A DNA stretch of 64,000 nucleotides, from the NCBI GenBank assembly GCA_030654175.1, contig JAURXZ010000042.1, positions 186,001 through 250,000 of the forward strand, in the 5' to 3' direction. Each line of letters starts with the position of its first letter. The stretch's first letter is position 1. The position numbers and the translations under genes are program-made. Under the pieces are notes generated by a model that was given only the letters and a program-made list of their open reading frames with translations, had not been told where the DNA came from and ran no database searches. The DNA comes from Bacteroidia bacterium (GTDB taxonomy: Bacteria; Bacteroidota; Bacteroidia; 2-12-FULL-35-15). Below, one piece after another: positions 27,338-46,153 of the stretch.

Positions 27338-27453
27338 TTTGGGCGTTTCCCCTTTCTTAAAGAAGAAAGGGGGCGGGCTTTACGCTTCAATCTACCCTTC
27401 CGCCTATTGGCGGAAGGGTAGGATTTACGCTGCAATCCCTAACGCGCATTTTC
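27338..27453 (+). repeat. Dispersed palindromic repeat family, copy A
   Basis: The element begins TTTGGGCGTTTCCC, continues GGGCGGGCTTTACGCTTC, and ends GGATTTACGCTGCAATCC then CTAACGC. Two variable hairpins separate these blocks (CCCTTTCTT.../AAGAAAGGG and CCCTTCCGCC/GGCGGAAGGG). Related copies are at 27608 and 37728. Confidence 0.85.
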
Positions 27454-27607: not shown

Positions 27608-27707
27608 TGAAAATGCGCGTTAGGGATTGCAGCGTAAATCCTTTTCTGTTTAGAAAAGATTGAAGCGCAAAGCCCGGCCTTTCTCTTTTAAGAAAGGAAC
27701 GCCCAAA
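27608..27707 (-). repeat. Dispersed palindromic repeat family, copy B (inverted)
   Basis: Minus-strand reading gives the same TTTGGGCG...GGGCTTTGCGCTTC...GGATTTACGCTGCAATCC blocks, with different internal hairpins. It faces copy A, and the shared GCGCATTTTCA ends make a larger inverted repeat across 27338-27707. Confidence 0.85.
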
Positions 27708-31306: not shown

Positions 31307-31843
31307 TTACTCTTCAGAGCCGCCTTTAATTACTTCCCCTTCGCTGGTAAGGGTCTTTGACAAATCACCACCCTTGGGTTTTATAGTTTGCCCGGGTTCT
31401 TCAATTTCATTTTGTGTTTCAGAAATTACTTCCTCTTTACTCGTGACCGGTTTTGAGATCCCCCCAACCTGGCGTTTCACACTTTGTCCGGGCTTATCAA
31501 TTTCGTTTTGTATTTCATTTTGAATTTCAGAGATCACTTCGCCTTCGCTGGTAATTGTTTTTGAGATATCGCCAACCTGATTCTTCATGCTGTGGCTTAT
31601 ATTATCAATTTCATTTTGCATTTGTGAAGTATGCTTTTCTATATCTTCTCTGATGCCACTTGTGCTTCTTTGAATTTCATTTTGGATCTGGGCTTTCGCA
31701 TCATTGATCTCCCTTAACCCCTTCCCTATCCCTTTCGCTAATCCGGGCAGTTTATCGGAGCCAAAAAGCATTATTATCACTAATACGATGATAAATACTT
31801 CACCTCCACCAAGGTTTAAAAATAAGAGAATTGAGCTGATCAT
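31307..31843 (-). CDS. tatA: Twin-arginine translocase subunit TatA with extended repetitive tail
   Basis: The first 60 residues are canonical TatA: transmembrane helix ending FGSDKLPGLAKGIGKGLRE, the conserved amphipathic helix. The remaining 120 residues are charged and repetitive, with at least three copies of a VGxISKTxTSEGEVISE-like unit linked by QNEI motifs. Canonical TatA is 70-90 residues, so this tail doubles it. Minus-strand terminator 31883-31912 separates it from secDF. Confidence 0.88.
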   Translation of the reverse strand: MISSILLFLNLGGGEVFIIVLVIIMLFGSDKLPGLAKGIGKGLREINDAKAQIQNEIQRSTSGIREDIEKHTSQMQNEIDNISHSMKNQVGDISKTITSEGEVISEIQNEIQNEIDKPGQSVKRQVGGISKPVTSKEEVISETQNEIEEPGQTIKPKGGDLSKTLTSEGEVIKGGSEE

Positions 31844-31882
31844 TTTATAACACTATTTATTACCACAAAGTTAAGCAAAAAA

Positions 31883-31912
31883 AAGCCCGATGAATAAATA
31901 TTCATCGGGCTT
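31883..31912 (-). terminator. Intrinsic terminator after secDF
   Basis: AAGCCCGATGAAT and its complement ATTCATCGGGCTT form a 13-bp stem. In the minus direction it is followed by eight or more T (the A-run on the plus strand). Confidence 0.85.
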
Positions 31913-31936
31913 AAAATAATTATCAATTATCAAGGA

Positions 31937-34900
31937 TTATGCAATTTCCTTAACATCATCTTTATCTCTCTCTAAATCAATTACAACAGGAGTTGCAATA
32001 CAAATAGATGAATACGTACCAATTACGATACCAATTAACAATGCAAAAGAGAACCCTCTGATGGTTTCGCCACCAAAAATGAAGATCGCCAACAATACAA
32101 AGAAGATGGTTAATGATGTATTGATAGTACGGCTTAATGTACTGTTCAACGCGTAGTTGATCACTTTTACTCTTTCCGCCTTATCTAACTCTGTTTTATT
32201 ACGTTCTGTTAAATATTCACGGATCCTGTCAAATACAACCACAGTGTCGGTCATTGAGTAACTCATTACCGTTAAAATAGCGGCAATAAAATCTTGCGTG
32301 ATCTCCAATGAGAAAGGTAAAATGCCATCAAAAATAATGTAAACAGAAAGTACAATAAGCACATCATGGAACAAAGCCACTACCGCACCTAAACCATACG
32401 TCCATTTTTTGAATCGTATGAAAATGAACACGAACATAACCAAACAGGACAATAATACCGCCCAGACTGCTTTGGATCTGATATCGCGTGATACCGTTTC
32501 TCCCACTTTCTGAGAACTCATCACCTCATATTTAATATCAAGTTTTTTTAACCCTTCGTTCAATTTAGCTTCCACTTTTGCTTCCGCTTCATCAGTAGCG
32601 TCCGCAATTAAATACGTAGTGGTGATGCGTTGCTGAGTACTTTCACCATAGGTTTTTACTTCAGGTGCTTCTCCAAAACTTTCCGTTAATACTTTACGTA
32701 CATCTTCGGTTGGTTTTGTTTCATCAAAACGAACCACATAAGAACGTCCACCTTTAAAATCAACTCCTAAGCTAAAACCACCTTTTTGTACATAAGAAAA
32801 TATACCTAAGGCAATCACTGCGGCTGAGAATATATAGTACATCTTACGTTTACCAACAAAATCAATATTGATCTTTTTGAAAGCGTTCTCCGTATATTTA
32901 TTTCCGAAAGAAATTGCTTTGTTTTTTCCTAACCAACGATCAAACACTAAACGTGTAATGAAGATAGCACAGAATAAAGAAGAAATAATACCAATGATCA
33001 AGGTAGTTGCGAAACCTTGTAAAGGTCCTGTACCGAATACATACAATATGATACCAAGTAATAAAGTGGTAACGTGAGAATCGATAACGGAGGACATTGC
33101 ATTGCTATACCCTTCTTTAATTGCAAGAGCAGTACTTTTTCCTAATCTCAACTCCTCCCGTACCCTTTCAAAAATAAGGATGTTCGCATCCACCGACATG
33201 GCTATTGTTAATACGATACCAGCAATCCCCGGCAATGTTAATACTGCACCAAATGATGCGAGGATACCTACCACAAACAAGTTATTGATGATCATTGCAA
33301 GATCGGCAACCCAACCAGCTTTGCTATAATAGAAGCCCATAAACAATAGCACTAATATCAATGCAATAATTGTTGAGAACAATCCTTTTGAAACCGCTTC
33401 AGCACCAAGTGTAGGCCCTACAACGCTTTCTTCCACAATACGAGCAGGTGCAGGTAATTTACCGGCTTTTAAAATATTGATCAAATCGTCTGCTTCTTCA
33501 ATACTGAAGTTACCGGTGATAGAAGATGTTCCTCCTGCAATTTCGCCTTGTACTGTAGGGAATGAATAAACACTGTTATCAAGTACGATAGCAATTGATT
33601 TACCAATATTATCTTTTGTTAAATGTTTCCATGCAATAGCCGCATCAGATGTCATGCTCATTGAAATTTGAGGCGAGCCTGAACCTTGCTGATCAAACAC
33701 TTTACGCGCTTCAGTTATGATATCACCCGAAAGGGCAGCTTTACCTCTTTCTCTCGAACCATCTATCGCAACTAACTGTACAGTGGTTTCTTCCTTATCA
33801 ACAGCTTTAAATGTCCAGAAAAAACGGGTGTATGGTTTGAAAATTGATTTTATTTTCTGCATTCTTAAATAGGCATTTATCTTACCTGTATCAGCAATAG
33901 CAGCATAACCAATTACCGGCCCCATGCCTAAAGTTGACTGGCCTTTATCATCACGGCCTATTGCAGGGCTTAATACTGCAAAAAGCGGATTTTCTTTTCT
34001 CAATCTCGCCATTGTATCGGCTTTGGTTTCGCCAATTTTTTTGGTTGTATCAGTTGAGGTACCTAATTGTGCTGATAGTGATGTTGAAGTGTCCTTTTTT
34101 GATGCCAGAATGGTATCATTTTTTGCAAGGGTAGTTGCTTTCGGAGCTGAAGCTTTTACTTTCTCTGCTACAGCAAGAGAATCTGTTTCAACAGAATCAG
34201 CAACAGGACTTAAGATCTCTTTTAAACGTGTATTTGCCTGCTCTAATAATGGATAAATATCTTTATTATCAAATGTTTCCCAGAACTCTAAATTTGCAGT
34301 TCCCTGCAATAATTTACGAACACGTTTTTTGTCAGTAACACCCGGTAACTCAATTAAAATACGACCGGATGAAGCCAAACGTTGAATGTTTGGCTGTGTT
34401 ACACCAAATTTATCAATACGGGCACGTAGAGTATTTTCCGAAGTAGCAATTGCATCTTCAACTCTTTCCTGCAAAAACTTCAACACCTCTTCATCAGGAG
34501 TATTAAAATCAATTTTGCCTTTCAACTCAATTGTTTGAAAATTGATGGCCAGTTTTGCATTTGGGTTAATTTTTTTGAACTCTTCACCAAAAATGATCAC
34601 AAAACTCTTAGGGTCTTTCTTTTGTCTTTCAACAGCCTGAGAAAGTGCTTTTGTAAAAGTAGGATCATTGCTGTTATTAGATAGTCCGCGGATGATATCT
34701 GCAACAGAAACTTCCAACGTAACATTCATACCTCCTTTTAAATCAAGTCCAAGATTTAACTGACGTTTTTTTACTTCCTCGTATGTATACTGGGTAATGA
34801 AGATATCATACACCGGTTTTTTCTTCAAAGAATCCAGGTAATAGTTCTTTTTAGCATTGAATAAATAATCCAAATATGTTTTTTGCTCAGATGGATTATC

Positions 34901-35068
34901 TGATTCTTTCTTTGCTGCTTCAGCAGCCTCAGGGCTTGCTACATAGTTTTTGGCAAATTCTTCAGCATCGTTTTCGATACCGGCCGCAACCCATGTAAAC
35001 ATTAAATAATAAGCACAGGCGAGTGCCAGTAAAATTGCAAATAGCCTAATTGCACCTTTGTTTTTCAT
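31937..35068 (-). CDS. secDF: SecD-SecF fusion protein translocase subunit
   Basis: The 1043-residue fusion has an N-terminal TM helix (LFAILLALACAYYLMFTW), a SecD periplasmic P1 domain (LNLGLDLKGGMNVTLEV), and six TM helices near 600-740. The SecF half starts at about 770 with LGVDFKGGRSYVVRF. Both halves have the RND fold (MSVDANILIFERVREELRLGK; YSMTDTVVVFDRIREYLTER). A 130-residue low-complexity insert (about 275-370) is rich in Ala, Ser, Thr and Asp. It uses proton motive force to complete Sec export. Confidence 0.96.
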   Translation of the reverse strand: MKNKGAIRLFAILLALACAYYLMFTWVAAGIENDAEEFAKNYVASPEAAEAAKKESDNPSEQKTYLDYLFNAKKNYYLDSLKKKPVYDIFITQYTYEEVKKRQLNLGLDLKGGMNVTLEVSVADIIRGLSNNSNDPTFTKALSQAVERQKKDPKSFVIIFGEEFKKINPNAKLAINFQTIELKGKIDFNTPDEEVLKFLQERVEDAIATSENTLRARIDKFGVTQPNIQRLASSGRILIELPGVTDKKRVRKLLQGTANLEFWETFDNKDIYPLLEQANTRLKEILSPVADSVETDSLAVAEKVKASAPKATTLAKNDTILASKKDTSTSLSAQLGTSTDTTKKIGETKADTMARLRKENPLFAVLSPAIGRDDKGQSTLGMGPVIGYAAIADTGKINAYLRMQKIKSIFKPYTRFFWTFKAVDKEETTVQLVAIDGSRERGKAALSGDIITEARKVFDQQGSGSPQISMSMTSDAAIAWKHLTKDNIGKSIAIVLDNSVYSFPTVQGEIAGGTSSITGNFSIEEADDLINILKAGKLPAPARIVEESVVGPTLGAEAVSKGLFSTIIALILVLLFMGFYYSKAGWVADLAMIINNLFVVGILASFGAVLTLPGIAGIVLTIAMSVDANILIFERVREELRLGKSTALAIKEGYSNAMSSVIDSHVTTLLLGIILYVFGTGPLQGFATTLIIGIISSLFCAIFITRLVFDRWLGKNKAISFGNKYTENAFKKINIDFVGKRKMYYIFSAAVIALGIFSYVQKGGFSLGVDFKGGRSYVVRFDETKPTEDVRKVLTESFGEAPEVKTYGESTQQRITTTYLIADATDEAEAKVEAKLNEGLKKLDIKYEVMSSQKVGETVSRDIRSKAVWAVLLSCLVMFVFIFIRFKKWTYGLGAVVALFHDVLIVLSVYIIFDGILPFSLEITQDFIAAILTVMSYSMTDTVVVFDRIREYLTERNKTELDKAERVKVINYALNSTLSRTINTSLTIFFVLLAIFIFGGETIRGFSFALLIGIVIGTYSSICIATPVVIDLERDKDDVKEIA

Positions 35069-35098
35069 AGTAATTTATTATTTTTAAAAATACGGGTG

Positions 35099-35106
35099 CA
35101 AATATA
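35099..35106 (-). promoter_or_regulatory. Candidate -7 element TATATTTG upstream of secDF
   Basis: Read on the minus strand, it matches TAnnTTTG. It lies 31 bp upstream of the start codon. No well-spaced -33 TTTG is visible. Confidence 0.4.
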
Positions 35107-35313
35107 GAATAATAATTAATTCCCATACCTATCAGGGCAATTTAATAATGAATATGCTTGAATCGCCCTTTGTTTTAGGCTTTAAGCACCTTTTTTAGTA
35201 TATTTGTGGTCAAAACCACCCAAATTACGAAAAAGCAAAAGTTGTATTCGTAATTTGATATTCGTTTTTGAAGAATTTAATATCAGTCCAGGGCTTCGTT
35301 TTTTCGTATTGTC

Positions 35314-35360
35314 GGTCATTCCGGACTTGTTTCGGAATCTCAGAGATGCTGAAACAAGCT
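35314..35360 (+). repeat. Truncated GTCATTCCGG... palindrome
   Basis: GTCATTCCGGACTTGTTTCG followed by GAATCTCAGAGATGCTGAAACAAG is one arm and loop of a widespread intergenic palindrome. When translated it gives VIPDLFRNL, a familiar spurious peptide. The second arm stops after GAAACAAG. It explains a spurious 64-codon frame here. Confidence 0.6.
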
Positions 35361-35414
35361 TATCAGATTTTACACCGATTATGATTAAATATCAGTAGTT
35401 TATCCATTATCCCT

Positions 35415-37697
35415 ATGAAATCGATCCGTTTTTCATTGATCCTCCTTTGTTTTTTGTTCATCAGGTCGTTTGCTGATGCTCAGCCTTTTTTTCAATGGAA
35501 TGATAGTATCCGGGTTAAAATTGACGGAGCTTTTACTGCAAACCCATGGGCTGGAGGATTAAATTTTATACAGGCATCCAACATTGATCTGAATTCTGAT
35601 GGCATCAAAGACCTTTTTATTTTTGATCGTACCGGTAACAAAGTGCGTACTTTTATTAATAAGGGTACCGCCAATACTGTTGATTTTAAATATGATCCAC
35701 AATACGAAGCCAAATTCCCGAAACTACACGACTGGGCACTGTTAGCTGACTATAACTGTGATGGCAAAGAAGATATTTTCAGCTATTCTGATGTAGGTGG
35801 AGGATTCAAAGTATATAAAAACACCTCCAGTATTTCCAGCGGACTGGAATTTACGCTGGTAACCATGTTGCAGTATTCGGTGTTCAACCCTCCAGGTGGC
35901 TCCCCTATCAATTTATATGTAAGTTCTGTAGATATTCCTGCCATTACCGATATTGATAATGATGGAGACCTGGATATCGTAACCTTTGCTATTACAGGCA
36001 CTTACATGGAGTACCACCAAAACAAAAGCATGGAACTATACGGCACCTGCGATAGTTTAAAATTTGAAATGAAAAACCGGTGCTGGGGATATGCGGCCGA
36101 AAACTCATTTAGCAATGGTTATACATTGAACGATACCTGTTTCGGAAATGTTGTTAATCCCGGAATTATTGCCTACAATGATGAAGAACGCTCCGCTGAC
36201 CGGCATTCGGGCTCCTGTTTACTTTGCCTGGATCTGGATGGCGACAATGATAAAGACCTGGTTACAGGGGATATATCTTTTAACAATCTAACCATGTTAA
36301 CCAACGGAGGTACACCAACAGCGGGCAGTATGGTTGCCATTGATGCTGCTTTCCCTTCTAACAATTCGAGCACAACACCGGTTGATCTGAATATTTTCCC
36401 CTGCGGTTATTATGTTGATGTAAATTTTGATGGCATGAAAGATCTGATCGTTAGTCCGAATGCACCTAATGCTTCCGAAGACTTTAATAGCGTGGTTTAT
36501 TACAAAAATGCAGGAACCAACAGCTTTCCTGACTTCCAGTTTCAACAATCCAATTTATTACAGGATAATATGATCGAAGTAGGAGAAGGCGCCTACCCTG
36601 TATTTTTCGATTATGATAACGATGGGCTGAAAGATCTTTTTATTGGTGATTATGGTTATTTTGGTGCTACAGGCTTTAAGCATAAAATAGCACAATTTAA
36701 AAATACAGGCACTGCAAGCCTCCCTGAATTTGATCTGATCACCCGCGATTACGCAGGTATGAGTTCCCTCGGAATAACCAATATGATTCCTGCATTTGGT
36801 GACCTGGATGGGGATGCGGATGCCGATATGATAGTTGGAGGATATGACGGAAAAATGCATTATTTCCAAAACATTGCATTACCGGGCGCTGCAGCCGATT
36901 TTGTTTTATCACAACCTAATTTAAGAAATTCGAGCAATCGCACCATAGATGTGGGGGATTTTGCCGTGCCGCAAATTGTGGATATGGATGCTGATGGTAA
37001 AAACGACCTGGTAATTGGCGGCAGAAACGGGAAACTTGCCTATTATCATCATATTGGGAGCGCTACAGCTACCCTACCTTTATTGGATTCTATCACACAT
37101 TTTTTAGGGAACGTAAAAGTAAATTTACCCGGATATGTTACCGGATACAGCTATCCATTTGTTTTTAAACAAAATGGCGTTACCAAATTATTGGTTGGTG
37201 AGGAAAGTGGATATATTCGGCTTTACGATAATATTGATGGAAACCTTTCAGGTGCATTTTCATTGGTAGATTCTACTTATGAGGACATTTTCCAAGGCAC
37301 CCGCACCGCACCAAACGGAGCTGATATTAATAACGATGGGTTTATGGATCTGATAGTAGGGAATTATCAAGGTGGTGTTTCCTATTACAAAGGCCGGTCA
37401 ACTCCAACATTGGTAACTAATTTTGCGAATTTTATTCAATGGAATTTTGATCTGTTCCCAAATCCTGCTGATAATACCGTTAATATAAAAATCAGAAATG
37501 ATAATAACAGTGCTTATACCCTTGAGTTATATACTATAATGGGTCAGTTGATCAGTTCGCAAAAAATAATTAATAACAGCATTGTATTGAACACACAGGG
37601 TTTGGCACAAGGGATTTACATTTGTAAAGTATCGGAACTAAGCGTTAATGGCGTTAAAGGTGCTGAACAAATTAAGCGGATCGTTATAAGGCATTAG
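35415..37697 (+). CDS. Secreted FG-GAP/VCBS repeat protein with T9SS type A sorting domain
   Basis: The 760-residue protein has a signal peptide (LILLCFLFIRSFADAQ). At least eight FG-GAP-like repeats follow (patterns such as DLNSDGIKDLFIFDR, DLDGDNDKDLVTGD, DYDNDGLKDLFIGDYG), with DxDxDGxxD calcium-binding loops that build a beta-propeller. A C-terminal Por-type sorting domain begins at FDLFPNPADNTVNIK and ends KRIVIRH. T9SS should secrete it to the cell surface. Role unknown, perhaps adhesion. Confidence 0.92.
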   Translation: MKSIRFSLILLCFLFIRSFADAQPFFQWNDSIRVKIDGAFTANPWAGGLNFIQASNIDLNSDGIKDLFIFDRTGNKVRTFINKGTANTVDFKYDPQYEAKFPKLHDWALLADYNCDGKEDIFSYSDVGGGFKVYKNTSSISSGLEFTLVTMLQYSVFNPPGGSPINLYVSSVDIPAITDIDNDGDLDIVTFAITGTYMEYHQNKSMELYGTCDSLKFEMKNRCWGYAAENSFSNGYTLNDTCFGNVVNPGIIAYNDEERSADRHSGSCLLCLDLDGDNDKDLVTGDISFNNLTMLTNGGTPTAGSMVAIDAAFPSNNSSTTPVDLNIFPCGYYVDVNFDGMKDLIVSPNAPNASEDFNSVVYYKNAGTNSFPDFQFQQSNLLQDNMIEVGEGAYPVFFDYDNDGLKDLFIGDYGYFGATGFKHKIAQFKNTGTASLPEFDLITRDYAGMSSLGITNMIPAFGDLDGDADADMIVGGYDGKMHYFQNIALPGAAADFVLSQPNLRNSSNRTIDVGDFAVPQIVDMDADGKNDLVIGGRNGKLAYYHHIGSATATLPLLDSITHFLGNVKVNLPGYVTGYSYPFVFKQNGVTKLLVGEESGYIRLYDNIDGNLSGAFSLVDSTYEDIFQGTRTAPNGADINNDGFMDLIVGNYQGGVSYYKGRSTPTLVTNFANFIQWNFDLFPNPADNTVNIKIRNDNNSAYTLELYTIMGQLISSQKIINNSIVLNTQGLAQGIYICKVSELSVNGVKGAEQIKRIVIRH

Positions 37698-37727: not shown

Positions 37728-37869
37728 TTGGGCGTTTCCCTTTTTTTACATCAGCCTTCCTCTCCTGCTGGAGAGGGAGGCTGATGTAAAAAGGGGCGGG
37801 CTTTACGCTTCAATCTTCCCTACCGCCTATTGGCGTTAGGGAAGGATTTACGCTGCAATCCCTAACGCA
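37728..37869 (+). repeat. Dispersed palindromic repeat family, copy C
   Basis: It has the same blocks as copies A and B: TTTGGGCGTTTCCC, GGGCGGGCTTTACGCTTC, GGATTTACGCTGCAATCC. The first hairpin slot holds a 50-bp near-perfect stem (37743-37792, TACATCAGCC.../...GGCTGATGTA) unlike that in copy A, so the slot varies while the flanks stay constant. Confidence 0.85.
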
Positions 37870-37917
37870 GCTTTTACGCTTTGCGAGAGTTTTACACCTG
37901 GTAAAAAAAATATTTTA

Positions 37918-40245: not shown

Positions 40246-40827
40246 TTATTTACTAAGGATATTCCTTTTATAAACCCAGTATATCCCTTTAACATTTGCT
40301 TCCCATTTAGGGATAATAATTACAAGAATAATTTCTTCTATTAAGTCGAGTGCAGTGACAATTGCCGCGGCATAAAACAAAAAATATAGAGGCTCAGGAA
40401 AAAAAAACAGCAGAACCAGGAATGTTCCCTGCAATATCGCAGCAACTTTAGCTAAATAGGTATGGAAACTTGAAATTTTGTGGTATTTGATCAGGGCAAA
40501 AACTGTCTGGAACAGAAATAATATAAATAAAATTATAAAAATCACCCTGTTATCATATATAAACCGGGCCTTAAAAACAAAAACGCCAATTATTGCTGCA
40601 ACAATAGTCAGGTCATCAGCAATAGAATCGAGTTTGGATCCGAAAACACTTGTTATCCTGAACATCCTGGCAAGAACCCCATCAATAAGGTCAGTAAAAA
40701 AACTTATGGCAAGCATCCATTTAAACAGATCCAAATTGTTGTTGAAAATTAAAAATACCAGTACAGGAGCCACAAGAAGCCTATACATTGTAATCCCATT
40801 TACGATATAATAGCCTGGTTTCCGCAT
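40246..40827 (-). CDS. CDP-alcohol phosphatidyltransferase-family protein
   Basis: The 193-residue protein has about five TM helices and the family active site D-L-I-D-G-x2-A-R-x8-G-x3-D-x3-D at residues 46-71 (DLIDGVLARMFRITSVFGSK, then LDSIADD). It joins a CDP-activated lipid to an alcohol headgroup in the membrane. Headgroup undetermined; phosphatidylglycerophosphate- or cardiolipin-type reactions are possible. Confidence 0.9.
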   Translation of the reverse strand: MRKPGYYIVNGITMYRLLVAPVLVFLIFNNNLDLFKWMLAISFFTDLIDGVLARMFRITSVFGSKLDSIADDLTIVAAIIGVFVFKARFIYDNRVIFIILFILFLFQTVFALIKYHKISSFHTYLAKVAAILQGTFLVLLFFFPEPLYFLFYAAAIVTALDLIEEIILVIIIPKWEANVKGIYWVYKRNILSK

Positions 40828-41073
40828 ATAAAGTTTTGATAAATTATTATACCAATCAAACTAATGAGGTGAAATGTCAATTGAGAAACAGTAGCTGTTT
40901 TTCTTTTTTTAATCAAAAGGCGATCTGACAAAAGCACCGTTTTTATTGGTATTATTGAAAACAATTGGGGTATTGTTTACTATCTGCTGCAAAAAAAGCA
41001 CATTCCGGGCATCATTTTCCTCATAAATGAGCATAAAAAGCCGGGAATAGTATTTTAAACTACTAAGGTGATT

Positions 41074-41159
41074 GAATCATTTTTGGGGTGCTGTTTACAG
41101 CTGAGAATATACCCATAGAACCTGATGCAGACAATACTGACGCAGGGACATAAAGATTC
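41074..41159 (+). ncRNA. TPP riboswitch aptamer (THI element), orphan
   Basis: The conserved core GGGGTGC (41085-41091), CTGAGA (41101-41106), ATACCC (41109-41114), GAACCTGAT (41118-41126) and CAGGGA (41143-41148) is the THI-element signature in the correct order and spacing. P1 can form from GAATC...TTT (41074-41084) and AAAGATTC (41152-41159). An intrinsic terminator follows at 41163-41191. The nearest downstream gene is on the other strand, so there is no thiamine gene for it to control in cis. Confidence 0.85.
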
Positions 41160-41162
41160 CTT

Positions 41163-41191
41163 AAGGCCCCTGATGAAGGGGCCTTTTTTTT
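41163..41191 (+). terminator. Intrinsic terminator of the riboswitch leader
   Basis: AAGGCCCC pairs with GGGGCCTT around TGATGAA and leads into eight T on the plus strand, so it ends plus-strand transcription. It comes immediately after the TPP aptamer. Confidence 0.88.
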
Positions 41192-41211
41192 GATAATAAA
41201 ATATCAAAATT

Positions 41212-42006
41212 TTAAAAATCTTGCTTTATGATCTTTTTTGAGATAACCTGATCATCAAAATAAACCTGAACAAAATATGCCCCTGGCTTTAGGTTGGACA
41301 AATTAAGCTGATTATTTATTGGAGTTACTTCCTCTTGAACAATACTACCAAGCAAATCGACCAACACTATTTTTTCAATTTTGCTTACCGAAGAAAAATA
41401 AATAGAATTCTGTGCCGGATTCGGATAAGCAGTAAAGGTGTTTTTATTATTGTGATCATTTATTGCAGTGGGCAGCACTTGCTGTGCACAAAGGTTATCT
41501 ATGGCCACTTCAAAGCCCATTATCTCTATAGTATTTATAAGTCCTTTAATTTCAACATGTATGCCCGTGGAAAGAGTCGTGTATGTATAAACCACACCGG
41601 AGGGCAAAACACTAAGGCCTGCTCCATTTACATTAAAGGCATTAACATCGGCAGGGGTAGAAGCATAACTTATATCAAATGATATTTTCCGATTTGTGAA
41701 TGATAAACCGGTAAAATCAATTTGAACATACACATCCCCCAGCCATAATAAATTTCCTGAAAAATTTGAATTATAAGCATTCCATGCTACAGATGTATCT
41801 ATCGTTACCGTAGGAATTGGAGGGGTATATTGTGAAATGTTAACAAATTTACTCCTGAAGTCAATCCCGCTGCTTGAATAAAAAGGACTGCCGTAAGATG
41901 TTTGGGCAATGTTGTCATAAATTGTTGTATCTTGAAAATTAGCACAAATCTGAGCATACATGAAGTTACTTGAAAGTAACAAACCGATTAGTAGTAGTTT
42001 TTTCAT
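41212..42006 (-). CDS. Secreted protein with T9SS type A sorting domain
   Basis: The 264-residue protein has a signal peptide (LLLIGLLLSSNFMYAQ) and an unassigned beta-rich middle (about 17-185) that recalls a carbohydrate-binding-like sandwich, then a Por sorting domain (FTAYPNPAQNSIYFSS to SKKIIKQDF). It lies convergent to the TPP riboswitch: any readthrough of the riboswitch would be antisense to its 3' end. Function unknown. Confidence 0.85.
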   Translation of the reverse strand: MKKLLLIGLLLSSNFMYAQICANFQDTTIYDNIAQTSYGSPFYSSSGIDFRSKFVNISQYTPPIPTVTIDTSVAWNAYNSNFSGNLLWLGDVYVQIDFTGLSFTNRKISFDISYASTPADVNAFNVNGAGLSVLPSGVVYTYTTLSTGIHVEIKGLINTIEIMGFEVAIDNLCAQQVLPTAINDHNNKNTFTAYPNPAQNSIYFSSVSKIEKIVLVDLLGSIVQEEVTPINNQLNLSNLKPGAYFVQVYFDDQVISKKIIKQDF

Positions 42007-42092: not shown

Positions 42093-43343
42093 TTAATTCA
42101 AACTATCATTTTTTGTTTTTTCCATCCGAATGACTTGAGCCAGTGATTTTAAAGCCCTGTCATGTTTTTTAACAAAAGGATTATTCAAATCCCAAACGTA
42201 GCCTGCAAGTACAGAGCAAATTTGTTTTTTAATTTCAGGATCGGGGTTTTCAGAAAAAAAGATATCATGCAGATCACCTTCATACCATGCTGAAACATAA
42301 GAGCGAAAGGTATTGATACCCTGCATCATGTGTTCAGTATAATCAACCTGCCAATCAACCTGTTCGCCTCTTAAAAAGCTTCCCACTAACTTTCCTGCTT
42401 TGTTTCCTGATTCCATTGCAAAAGTAACTCCGGATGAAAATACAGGATCAAGAAATTCTGTTGCATTACCACAAAGAACAAAACCATCACCATACAATTG
42501 TTTGGTTGAAATTGCATATCCTTCAATAGTGCGTGGTTCAAAAATCATTTCGGCATTTCCGAAACGATCTTGCGTATTACTGTCGGATGCAATAATGGCT
42601 TTCATTCTTTCTGTTGCATTTTCGGGGAAATCTTTAAAAAATTCCGGATCGGCAACAAAACCAACAGAGGTGATACCATTTGAAAAAGGAATGATCCATA
42701 TCCATGTACGTTTTTGATGGACAACCACTGTTATTCTGTTTCCATCAATACCTTCGGGCCGTTTTAAATCGCGAAAATGAGTAAAATGTGTTTTACGGGG
42801 ATCGAAAGCGGAGGGTTTATCCAGGTTGAACATGCGCGGAATAACCCGCCCATAGCCACTTGCATCAACAATAAATTTAGCCTCGATCTGTTTTTTGTTG
42901 CCATCTTTATCAACTACAGTAGTTATAGATCGTGTGCCATTAAATTTAATATCAATAACAGAAGTTTGTTCCTCTACTTCAACACCCATAGATGCAACAG
43001 TAGAAGACAAAACCTGGTCGAACTGAGCACGGGGAACCTGCCATGTCCAGGTCCAGCCTTTACTAAATTGTTCTGAAAAATTAAAATCACAAATCTCGTT
43101 TCCTCTGACAAATTTTGCTCCGAATTTTTCCTGAAAACCTACTTTTTTAACTGCGTCCAACAATTTAGCCTCTTCCAAATGGTCCATCACTCTAGGTAAT
43201 AAACTTTCTCCAATTACAAAGCGTGGAAATTTTTCTTTCTCAACTACTTTTACCTTAAACCCCTGCTGATGAATTATTGAGCTTGCTATAGATCCTGCCG
43301 GCCCTGCACCGATTACAAGCACATCTACTTTTTCTGTTTGCAT
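42093..43343 (-). CDS. Halogenase-like FAD-dependent oxidoreductase
   Basis: The 416-residue protein has a GxGxxG FAD site (VIGAGPAGSIA, residues 10-20), the KFPRFVIGESLLPR block (38-51), and WIWIIP at 214-219, the WxWxIP motif linked with flavin-dependent halogenases. It closes with LCGNATEFLDPVFSSGVTFA (second FAD motif). It either halogenates the aryl head of the pigment, as chlorine is known in some flexirubins, or acts as an oxygenase. An O-methyltransferase starts 10 bp upstream in the same operon. Confidence 0.85.
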   Translation of the reverse strand: MQTEKVDVLVIGAGPAGSIASSIIHQQGFKVKVVEKEKFPRFVIGESLLPRVMDHLEEAKLLDAVKKVGFQEKFGAKFVRGNEICDFNFSEQFSKGWTWTWQVPRAQFDQVLSSTVASMGVEVEEQTSVIDIKFNGTRSITTVVDKDGNKKQIEAKFIVDASGYGRVIPRMFNLDKPSAFDPRKTHFTHFRDLKRPEGIDGNRITVVVHQKRTWIWIIPFSNGITSVGFVADPEFFKDFPENATERMKAIIASDSNTQDRFGNAEMIFEPRTIEGYAISTKQLYGDGFVLCGNATEFLDPVFSSGVTFAMESGNKAGKLVGSFLRGEQVDWQVDYTEHMMQGINTFRSYVSAWYEGDLHDIFFSENPDPEIKKQICSVLAGYVWDLNNPFVKKHDRALKSLAQVIRMEKTKNDSLN

Positions 43344-43353
43344 TATTATTGTA

Positions 43354-44424
43354 TTATTTTATTTTTTTACATTTTAATAAGGTATGACTCACCCCTACAT
43401 TTTTTATCGTTTCTTCCACCTGAAGTCCGGCAGATTCTATTAATTTTAAAAACACTTTCGAGTCGTACATCTGGCTATTACCATTAGCCATAGTGGTGAA
43501 ATAGAGTGAGGTCATCTGCAAACAAAATGAAGCGGCTTCAAAACGTTGCAGGTCCCAAAAGGGTTCTAAAATATAAATATATCCGTTGTCGTTTACTGCA
43601 TCATTACAACGTTTTAAGATTGAAATAATTTGTTCGTCTGAAAAACAATCTAAAAACTGACTCATCCAAATTGCATCAAATCCTTTGGGAAATGGAAGTG
43701 TTTCATCCAAAATATTTGCATGATAAAATGAAACTCTATTTGTAAATCCAAGGGCATCAATATTTTTTTTCGCCATATTAGCCTGCCCGGGTAAATCCAT
43801 GATGGTAACATGCACATCGCTATCGTGTTTAACACTTGCAATCGCCCATTTGCCGGTATTTCCACCAATGTCAAGCAATGTTTTGGGTTTGTTGCTATAA
43901 ACACGGGGTAATACTTCGGGAAAAGAATCGTCAGAATAATAATGATCAAAAGCAAACCAGCTTTTTTGAACATCGGGTTCCAGGTGGGCCAAAGCCTCAT
44001 AAATTGTTTTCCATGAACCAAAAACTTTTAAGCCTTCGGGAGTACCGTTTTTTATACTCTTCTCTAAACTAAACGTCCCTTCATAACAAACATCATGAGT
44101 AAAGTCCATATTTACACGCGTTAATTTATCATGCAAGATAAAGTAAGCCGTTTTTGTGATCGTATATTTTTCATTATTATTTAAAAGCAATCCAATCCCA
44201 AGGCCTGCTTCCATTAAAACTCTCACACCATAGTATGGTAATTTTAATTTAGTACTAACCTCTTCAATAGTAGTACCTTCATTACCGGCATTTTCTATTG
44301 TTGTTAAAATTTCACAGTTGCGCAAGGCTCTTGTTGCCTGAAAAACAACCGGTGCAAAGGCAATCCATTGTGCATATTCTTTGGCTTGAAGGGCTGTTTT
44401 GTTATCTTTTGTATAAAAATTCAT
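43354..44424 (-). CDS. SAM-dependent O-methyltransferase (winged-helix dimer type)
   Basis: Preferred start at 44424 (MNFYTKDNK); an upstream start at 44454 adds ten residues without similarity. The N-terminal winged-helix dimerisation domain (about 10-95) is typical of plant-type O-methyltransferases. The Rossmann fold has the SAM motif LLDIGGNTGKWAI (about 183-195). It probably methylates the phenolic hydroxyl of the pigment. It is divergently arranged with the tyrosine ammonia-lyase. Confidence 0.88.
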   Translation of the reverse strand: MNFYTKDNKTALQAKEYAQWIAFAPVVFQATRALRNCEILTTIENAGNEGTTIEEVSTKLKLPYYGVRVLMEAGLGIGLLLNNNEKYTITKTAYFILHDKLTRVNMDFTHDVCYEGTFSLEKSIKNGTPEGLKVFGSWKTIYEALAHLEPDVQKSWFAFDHYYSDDSFPEVLPRVYSNKPKTLLDIGGNTGKWAIASVKHDSDVHVTIMDLPGQANMAKKNIDALGFTNRVSFYHANILDETLPFPKGFDAIWMSQFLDCFSDEQIISILKRCNDAVNDNGYIYILEPFWDLQRFEAASFCLQMTSLYFTTMANGNSQMYDSKVFLKLIESAGLQVEETIKNVGVSHTLLKCKKIK

Positions 44425-44457
44425 CTGTTGGATTTTAAGAAACAAATGTAACATATT

Positions 44458-44564
44458 AAGTTAAAAGAAAAGAAAGTCAAAAGTCAAAAGGGCAATCTTA
44501 ATTCACCTGGTTCAAAAGCAATCTATTTTTTCTTTTGACTTTTAACTTTCTTCTCTTTTAACTT
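44458..44564. repeat. 33-bp near-perfect inverted repeat between the divergent pigment operons
   Basis: AAGTTAAAAG...TCAAAAG at 44458-44490 and its complement at 44532-44564 match at 31 of 33 positions, separated by 41 bp. It occupies the divergent promoter region of the methyltransferase and ammonia-lyase. Confidence 0.8.
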
Positions 44565-44608
44565 TTGTTTATATATTCGCATTGAGTTATTTTTTAAAAA
44601 TTGTTAGT

Positions 44609-46153
44609 ATGCAAAAAAACGTTGCCATTATTAAGGTTGGATCGGAAATATTAAATTACAAAAACTGTTATGAAGTATTGATCAATAACAGTAAAATTGA
44701 ACTGGATGATGCAGCATTAAAAAACGTGTATGAAAGTTTTTATTTTTTAAAAGAATTCATAAAAGATAAGTTGATTTATGGTATTAATACGGGATTTGGC
44801 CCAATGGCCCAATACAAAATAAGTAATGAAGACCAAATTCAACTACAATATAATTTAATACGAAGTCACTGTTCGGGTAGCGGAAATCCAATAGCAGTTT
44901 TAAATGTTAAAGCCCTAATGCTTGCAAGGTTAAGCAGCCTGATGCGCGGCTATTCAGGGGTACATCCGGACGCAGTTATTTTATTAAAAGAACTGATCAA
45001 TAGGGATATTTGCCCTGTTATCTACGAACATGGCGGATTAGGCGCCAGCGGTGACCTTGTTCAATTGGCTCACCTCGCTTTAACACTGATTGGTGAAGGG
45101 GAAGTACATTATAAAGGCGAAATTATTGAAACGGATAAAGCATTTAAAATTGAGGGATTAAAACCACTTGAAGTTCATATCAGAGAAGGATTGGCTTTGA
45201 TGAATGGAACATCAGCCATGTGCGGAGTTGGATTGGTAAACCTGATACACGCCAGAAACCTTGTAAAACTAACTGTTGCAGCCTCCAGCATGATCGTGGA
45301 GATGGTGGAATCATACGATGATCATTTTTCCAATGAATTGAATTCTGTAAAACACCATCCCGGTCAAAACCATATAGCGAAGGCCATGCAGGCGTTTTTG
45401 GCAGATAGTCAATTAATTAAAAAACGCGAAAAACATCTGTACGATAATCCGATAAAAGAAAATATATTAAAGGATAAGGTGCAGGAATATTATTCGATAC
45501 GCTGTGTTCCGCAAATAGTAGGGCCCATTGAGGATACAATAAATTATGCGGAGCAGGTTATTATAAATGAAATTAATTCGGTGAATGATAACCCGATAAT
45601 AGATTATAAAAATAAAAATGTTTTTCACGGTGGTAATTTCCATGGCGATTATGCGTCCCTGGAAATGGACAAACTAAAAATTGCGATCACAAAACTTTCT
45701 ATGCTTTGCGAACGGCAGCTTAACTTTTTACTCAATGATAAATTAAATGGCAAACTTCCTCCGTTTGTAAACCTTGGAGTTCTTGGTTTAAACCTGGGAA
45801 TACAAGGCATCCAGTTTACGGCCACATCCACCACTGCCGAAAATCAAACATTATGTTTCCCTATGTATGTGCATAGCATACCAAGCAATAACGACAACCA
45901 AGATATTGTAAGTATGGGGACAAATGCCGCACTAATTGCGCAAAAAGTAATTTTCAATACCTATGAAGTAATTGCTATCGAGTTTTTAGCGATTATACAG
46001 GCAATTGATTATTTGAAAGTACAAGGTAAGATTTCAAAAAATGCTTTAAACTATTATACTGAACTCAGAGGCCTGGTGCCGGTATTTGAGAAGGATAGTG
46101 TACGGTATAAGGAGCAGGCGAGAATTGTTGAGTACCTCAGAAAAAGTATATAA
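44609..46153 (+). CDS. Tyrosine ammonia-lyase (HAL/PAL family) of the flexirubin cluster
   Basis: 514 residues from ATG 44609; a TTG at 44582 would add nine. The MIO cofactor triad is ASG at 146-148 in GGLGASGDLVQLAHLAL. The substrate selectivity pair is SH at 86-87 in NLIRSHCSG. It closely resembles the Flavobacterium johnsoniae tyrosine ammonia-lyase as I recall it (INTGFGPMAQY, IREGLALMNGTSAM, FHGGNFHGDYASLEMDKLKI). It makes 4-coumarate, the starter unit of flexirubin. First gene of the plus-strand operon. Confidence 0.92.
   Translation: MQKNVAIIKVGSEILNYKNCYEVLINNSKIELDDAALKNVYESFYFLKEFIKDKLIYGINTGFGPMAQYKISNEDQIQLQYNLIRSHCSGSGNPIAVLNVKALMLARLSSLMRGYSGVHPDAVILLKELINRDICPVIYEHGGLGASGDLVQLAHLALTLIGEGEVHYKGEIIETDKAFKIEGLKPLEVHIREGLALMNGTSAMCGVGLVNLIHARNLVKLTVAASSMIVEMVESYDDHFSNELNSVKHHPGQNHIAKAMQAFLADSQLIKKREKHLYDNPIKENILKDKVQEYYSIRCVPQIVGPIEDTINYAEQVIINEINSVNDNPIIDYKNKNVFHGGNFHGDYASLEMDKLKIAITKLSMLCERQLNFLLNDKLNGKLPPFVNLGVLGLNLGIQGIQFTATSTTAENQTLCFPMYVHSIPSNNDNQDIVSMGTNAALIAQKVIFNTYEVIAIEFLAIIQAIDYLKVQGKISKNALNYYTELRGLVPVFEKDSVRYKEQARIVEYLRKSI

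Follow-up and report, generated by a model that had tools for sequence, protein, structure and literature searches.

The region of interest lies in a 64-kb stretch of DNA (the window, meaning the whole stretch analysed here) from the genome designated G000, between a divergently oriented gene and a convergent one. It contains the following features:

40246-40827, minus strand: CDP-alcohol phosphatidyltransferase gene (PF01066), the divergent neighbour
41044-41065, plus strand: conserved, promoter-like upstream block (GGtAta.t..TTTAa), gapless in all five carriers described below
41074-41166, plus strand: TPP aptamer (THI element), full-length RF00059 match
41074-41083, plus strand: 5' strand of the extended P1 (GAATCATTTT), pairing with the GATTC side
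41150-41159, plus strand: 3' strand of the extended P1 (ATAAAGATTC), with changes in the P1 pairs
41163-41191, plus strand: intrinsic terminator hairpin and T tract, directly 3' of the aptamer
41212-42006, minus strand: convergent gene for a secreted protein with a T9SS C-terminal sorting domain (PF18962)

A cmscan search of the 64-kb window matched the RF00059 model from end to end (positions 1-105) at 41074-41166 of the plus strand, with a score of 64.9 bits (E-value 1.9e-10), the gathering threshold being 54.3. All conserved blocks of the aptamer were found, namely, GGGGTGC, GCTGAGA, TACCC, GAACCTGAT and CAGGGA. Given the full-length match above the gathering score, the aptamer is a member of the RF00059 class and a putative TPP binder. 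The terminator that follows (AAGGCCCC-TGATGA-AGGGGCCTT and then a run of T) fits the layout of a transcription-terminating riboswitch. The sequence-only reading had described a full plus-strand THI aptamer, an intrinsic terminator behind it and no plus-strand gene until 44.6 kb; the Rfam search and the terminator at 41163-41191 bear out the first two points, and the first plus-strand gene beyond is indeed an aromatic amino acid lyase gene at 44582. The latter is clustered with FAD-dependent halogenase-like and O-methyltransferase genes (42093-46153) in an arrangement that resembles an aryl pigment cluster. The convergent T9SS gene has no full-length homologue in 35 congeners, the weak matches being centred on the sorting domain.

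Relatives carrying the unit and the loci it occupies

When 36 genomes of the genus were searched at the DNA level with the intergenic region, four further copies were recovered, in G017 (90%), G022 (87%), G019 (82%) and G012 (81%). The recurring unit consists of an upstream block of ~40 nt, the aptamer and the terminator, and the similarity among carriers ceases at the terminator or shortly beyond it. The aptamers of the other four carriers score 60.2-64.0 bits with RF00059, and all five copies retain the TPP-recognition blocks. An extended covariance model scores the five carriers at 120-148 bits and no other TPP aptamer of the genus above 49; since these five copies also served to build the model, it is the gap rather than the height of the scores that counts as evidence. 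The four relatives are metagenome-assembled drafts, some of them highly fragmented.

Among 395 genomes of the class, the exact aptamer-plus-terminator pattern is absent from every other genus. Scanning of genome contigs returned four Bacteroidetes records, which correspond to the four relatives, and six matches outside Bacteroidia, four of which have readable downstream sequence, in each case with same-strand ORFs whose translations, judged by eye, resemble thiG/thiH, thiC/thi4 or a Thi-type ABC transporter. The plasmid search yielded only two Lacticaseibacillus matches covering 69 bases of the aptamer, and none of the viral contigs contained the aptamer-plus-terminator pattern. The aptamer core is 87.5% alike, over 64 nt, to a thiamine-transporter riboswitch of Dichelobacter.

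Across the five species, the unit occupies four unrelated loci. It is convergent with the T9SS gene in G000, with a trypsin-like gene in G017, where the copy lies at the end of a contig, and with an ABC ATPase gene in G022, so that three of the five copies aim at a convergent gene; the three genes are mutually unrelated. In the sibling species G012 and G019, the unit lies between tatA and a same-strand gene for a CPA2 antiporter, which starts about 130-200 nt past the terminator. The closest G000 matches of the neighbour genes of G017 and G022 are distant (≤36% identity), and the orthologues of the CDP-alcohol phosphatidyltransferase in G022 and G012 are located on contigs other than those carrying the unit. 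No thiamine synthesis or uptake gene is found downstream on the same strand in any of the five carriers, and none of the copies is thus arranged like a TPP riboswitch that controls such a gene in cis. The sequence-only reading had proposed a comparison of whether relatives keep the aptamer without such a gene; four congeners do.

A close orthologue of the antiporter is present only in G012 and G019 and was not found in G000, G017 and G022 (the latter two genomes being incomplete), and between terminator and antiporter the spacers of G012 and G019 show no recognisable similarity. The tatA-SecDF-VCBS genes are retained in the G000 window (31307-37697), with neither the unit nor the antiporter beside tatA. 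Gene loss in place, whereby an antiporter beside tatA would have been lost in G000, does not account for the pattern, because the G000 unit is located ~9 kb from tatA on the opposite strand and the loci in G017 and G022 differ. In G000, the unit is flanked by an AT-rich inverted pair of 22 nt (40829-40850 and 41193-41214; 86% complementary), which may be due to chance; it was considered as a candidate for the ends of a mobile element and rejected, no equivalent being seen in G022.

Selection on the unit and its predicted folding

In a SecDF tree, the carriers fall within one supported clade (96/89), in which G029 is the sole non-carrier; two changes are required, as would result from a single gain and a single loss. 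The identity of the unit to the G000 copy is well above that of the 4-fold sites of SecDF: 98% versus 71% in G017, 92% versus 49% in G022, 75% versus 43% in G012 and 76% versus 41% in G019, where the values for the unit come from an alignment made by hand and shift somewhat with other alignments. Furthermore, seven base pairs are altered on both sides, including four in P1, two in P3 and one in the terminator (C-G to T-A in G022). The P1 pair changes divide G000, G017 and G022 from G012 and G019, and, coming from five sequences, the compensatory changes represent few independent events.

The upstream block keeps a fixed spacing, from -41 to -20 relative to the GGGG core, in all five carriers, and its best 12-nt windows show an identity of 0.64 among four carriers, the highest value among 1000 shifts of the null being 0.58. 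A motif scan of this block for the canonical Bacteroidetes promoter, TTG/TAnnTTTG, came back empty, and another motif farther upstream, ATNATTTTC around -72, was not above the null without gaps (about 0.09).

The terminator dominates the predicted folding. Its hairpin has a mean pairing probability of 0.999 in G000, G017 and G022, 0.994 in G019 and 0.855 in G012. With the terminator forbidden, its 5' arm is unpaired in the best structure and has no alternative partner; equilibrium folding of the full-length RNA yields no stable antiterminator. The terminator is thus not visibly switchable in these predictions, which describe equilibrium and which kinetically regulated riboswitch terminators would escape. 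Because the GGGG of the core can pair transiently with the CCCC of the terminator in some truncated transcripts, kinetic switching may occur.

Possible functions of the unit

The occurrence in five species at four loci, together with the compensatory changes, is best fitted by a trans-acting small RNA, and the conserved upstream block and terminator are further comparative signs of the kind expected of a small RNA gene. We therefore favour, on comparative evidence and with a probability of about 0.55, an autonomous gene for a small RNA of ~115 nt that comprises the TPP aptamer and the terminator and would act in trans. We infer transcription of the unit, binding of TPP to the RNA and an action in trans. 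The promoter-like block would start a short RNA, in which the aptamer is closed by the extended P1 and which ends at the terminator with or without TPP; TPP might then act by stabilising this RNA or changing its fold, with effects on its stability or its activity on a trans partner, which could be an mRNA or a protein. A ligand-driven change of fold or stability has been proposed for the SAM-II small RNAs of Sinorhizobium meliloti (PMC9373788). A crude test of pairing between the unit and thiamine leaders gave energies inflated by the self-complementary aptamers on both sides, with a mononucleotide shuffle as the only control, so that no pairing can be read from it. The fuller evolutionary scenario, in which a riboswitch has turned into a dedicated trans-acting small RNA gene that is vertically kept, relocates and has no cis gene, is more tentative, and we would put it at somewhat under even odds.

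Among the alternatives, control in cis, with the terminator regulating a downstream gene in some species and the unit orphaned elsewhere by rearrangement, is unlikely. The same-strand antiporter gene shortly after the terminator allows for such control in G012 and G019, and outside Bacteroidia the same layout sits before thi genes; however, the dissimilar spacers in front of the antiporter, the lack of its orthologue in the other three carriers (two of them incomplete) and the strong constraint on the geneless copies, including the compensatory change in the terminator, all speak against it. Still less can be said for a TPP-controlled antisense RNA akin to AspocR of Listeria, one of the three readings offered from the sequence, which we consider very improbable. 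Although a convergent gene faces three of the five copies, these genes differ between genomes and share no conserved antisense target, that at 41212-42006 is genome-specific and probably a neighbour rather than a target of the unit, G012 and G019 have a same-strand gene and no adjoining convergent one, and a stable antiterminator is not predicted.

Another of these readings, a functionless relic left by a thiamine gene since lost, here widened to include a riboswitch gained horizontally, would be compatible with the canonical thiS-thiC riboswitch already present in the same genome and with the likeness of the core to that of Dichelobacter. A relic is disfavoured, because conservation of the unit across the clade is far above the neutral expectation and no carrier has a thi gene behind it; we regard this explanation as quite unlikely, in line with the earlier argument from the conserved core, which the excess over 4-fold sites and the compensatory changes reinforce. 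A similarly low probability attaches to a structured RNA, or an element for termination, that is conserved with its aptamer fold for a reason other than TPP sensing: the dominance of the terminator in folding would suit it, but P1-P5 are superfluous for a mere terminator and the TPP-recognition blocks are kept in every carrier. Of the three readings drawn from the sequence, it is thus the trans-acting small RNA that fits best.

The unit resembles the TPP riboswitches that precede thi genes in its fold, its core and the terminator right after P1, a layout also seen in the Spirochaetales, Thermovirga and Dichelobacter matches, but differs from them in its four loci and in lacking a thiamine gene or, outside G012 and G019, any same-strand gene. 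Barrick and Breaker (2007) noted a handful of apparently functional, high-scoring orphan aptamers that do not precede a related gene, and suggested that they are trans-acting antisense RNAs or were recently orphaned (PMC2258182); since then, such orphans have been taken for debris of rearrangements or for potential regulators in trans. The unit likewise has no related gene, but is conserved throughout a clade and relocates, which disfavours recent orphaning. In Listeria, the terminated SAM riboswitch RNA SreA acts as an ncRNA in trans and also controls an operon in cis, whereas in Rli55 and AspocR a B12 riboswitch determines whether a short or a long functional RNA is made (PMC8079631). The unit would share with SreA a terminated riboswitch RNA with a proposed trans role, but has no cis operon in three of the five genomes; with Rli55 and AspocR it has in common the link between riboswitch and ncRNA, but nothing is conserved past its terminator. 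The RZ and RA RNAs of S. meliloti are terminated SAM-II aptamer small RNAs, probably stabilised by their ligand (PMC9373788), yet they come from the metZ and metA mRNA leaders and are not independent genes, whereas the unit stands alone. No stand-alone small RNA of the TPP class turned up in searches of open-licence papers. A clade in which an aptamer is kept under selection at changing loci and without a thiamine gene makes the option of a trans regulator directly testable and, in the case of TPP, the unit would be a ligand-sensing small RNA gene rather than a by-product of a leader.

Other TPP aptamers and Flavo-1 RNA

The G000 genome contains three TPP matches in total. Apart from the unit at 41074, these are the canonical case, at C27:63618 upstream of thiS-thiC, and an aptamer with a degenerate core and a terminator (G000:C31:287668-287766; L003 1501-1599, minus strand), which is followed 174 nt downstream by a DoxX-like gene, and which precedes this and a DUF2267 gene instead of thiamine genes. 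In another family of the class, G053:C94 carries a TPP aptamer of 54.5 bits with an immediate terminator (L027 1501-1592, plus strand), which precedes a gene with an ORF6N domain instead of one for thiamine. Most of the remaining aptamers examined lie upstream of thiS/thiC or of a TonB-type receptor gene, the genes behind these other aptamers having been named by eye from translations. The layouts in C31 and G053, placed before non-thiamine genes, could mean that conversion to small RNA occurred more than once in the class.

The window also contains three matches to Flavo-1 RNA (RF01705), at 27367-27448 (minus strand), 27614-27683 (plus strand) and 37790-37876 (minus strand), which have GATTG.AGCG.AAA motifs in common. 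The density of five copies per 90 kb in this genome suggests a dispersed repeat rather than single small RNA genes.
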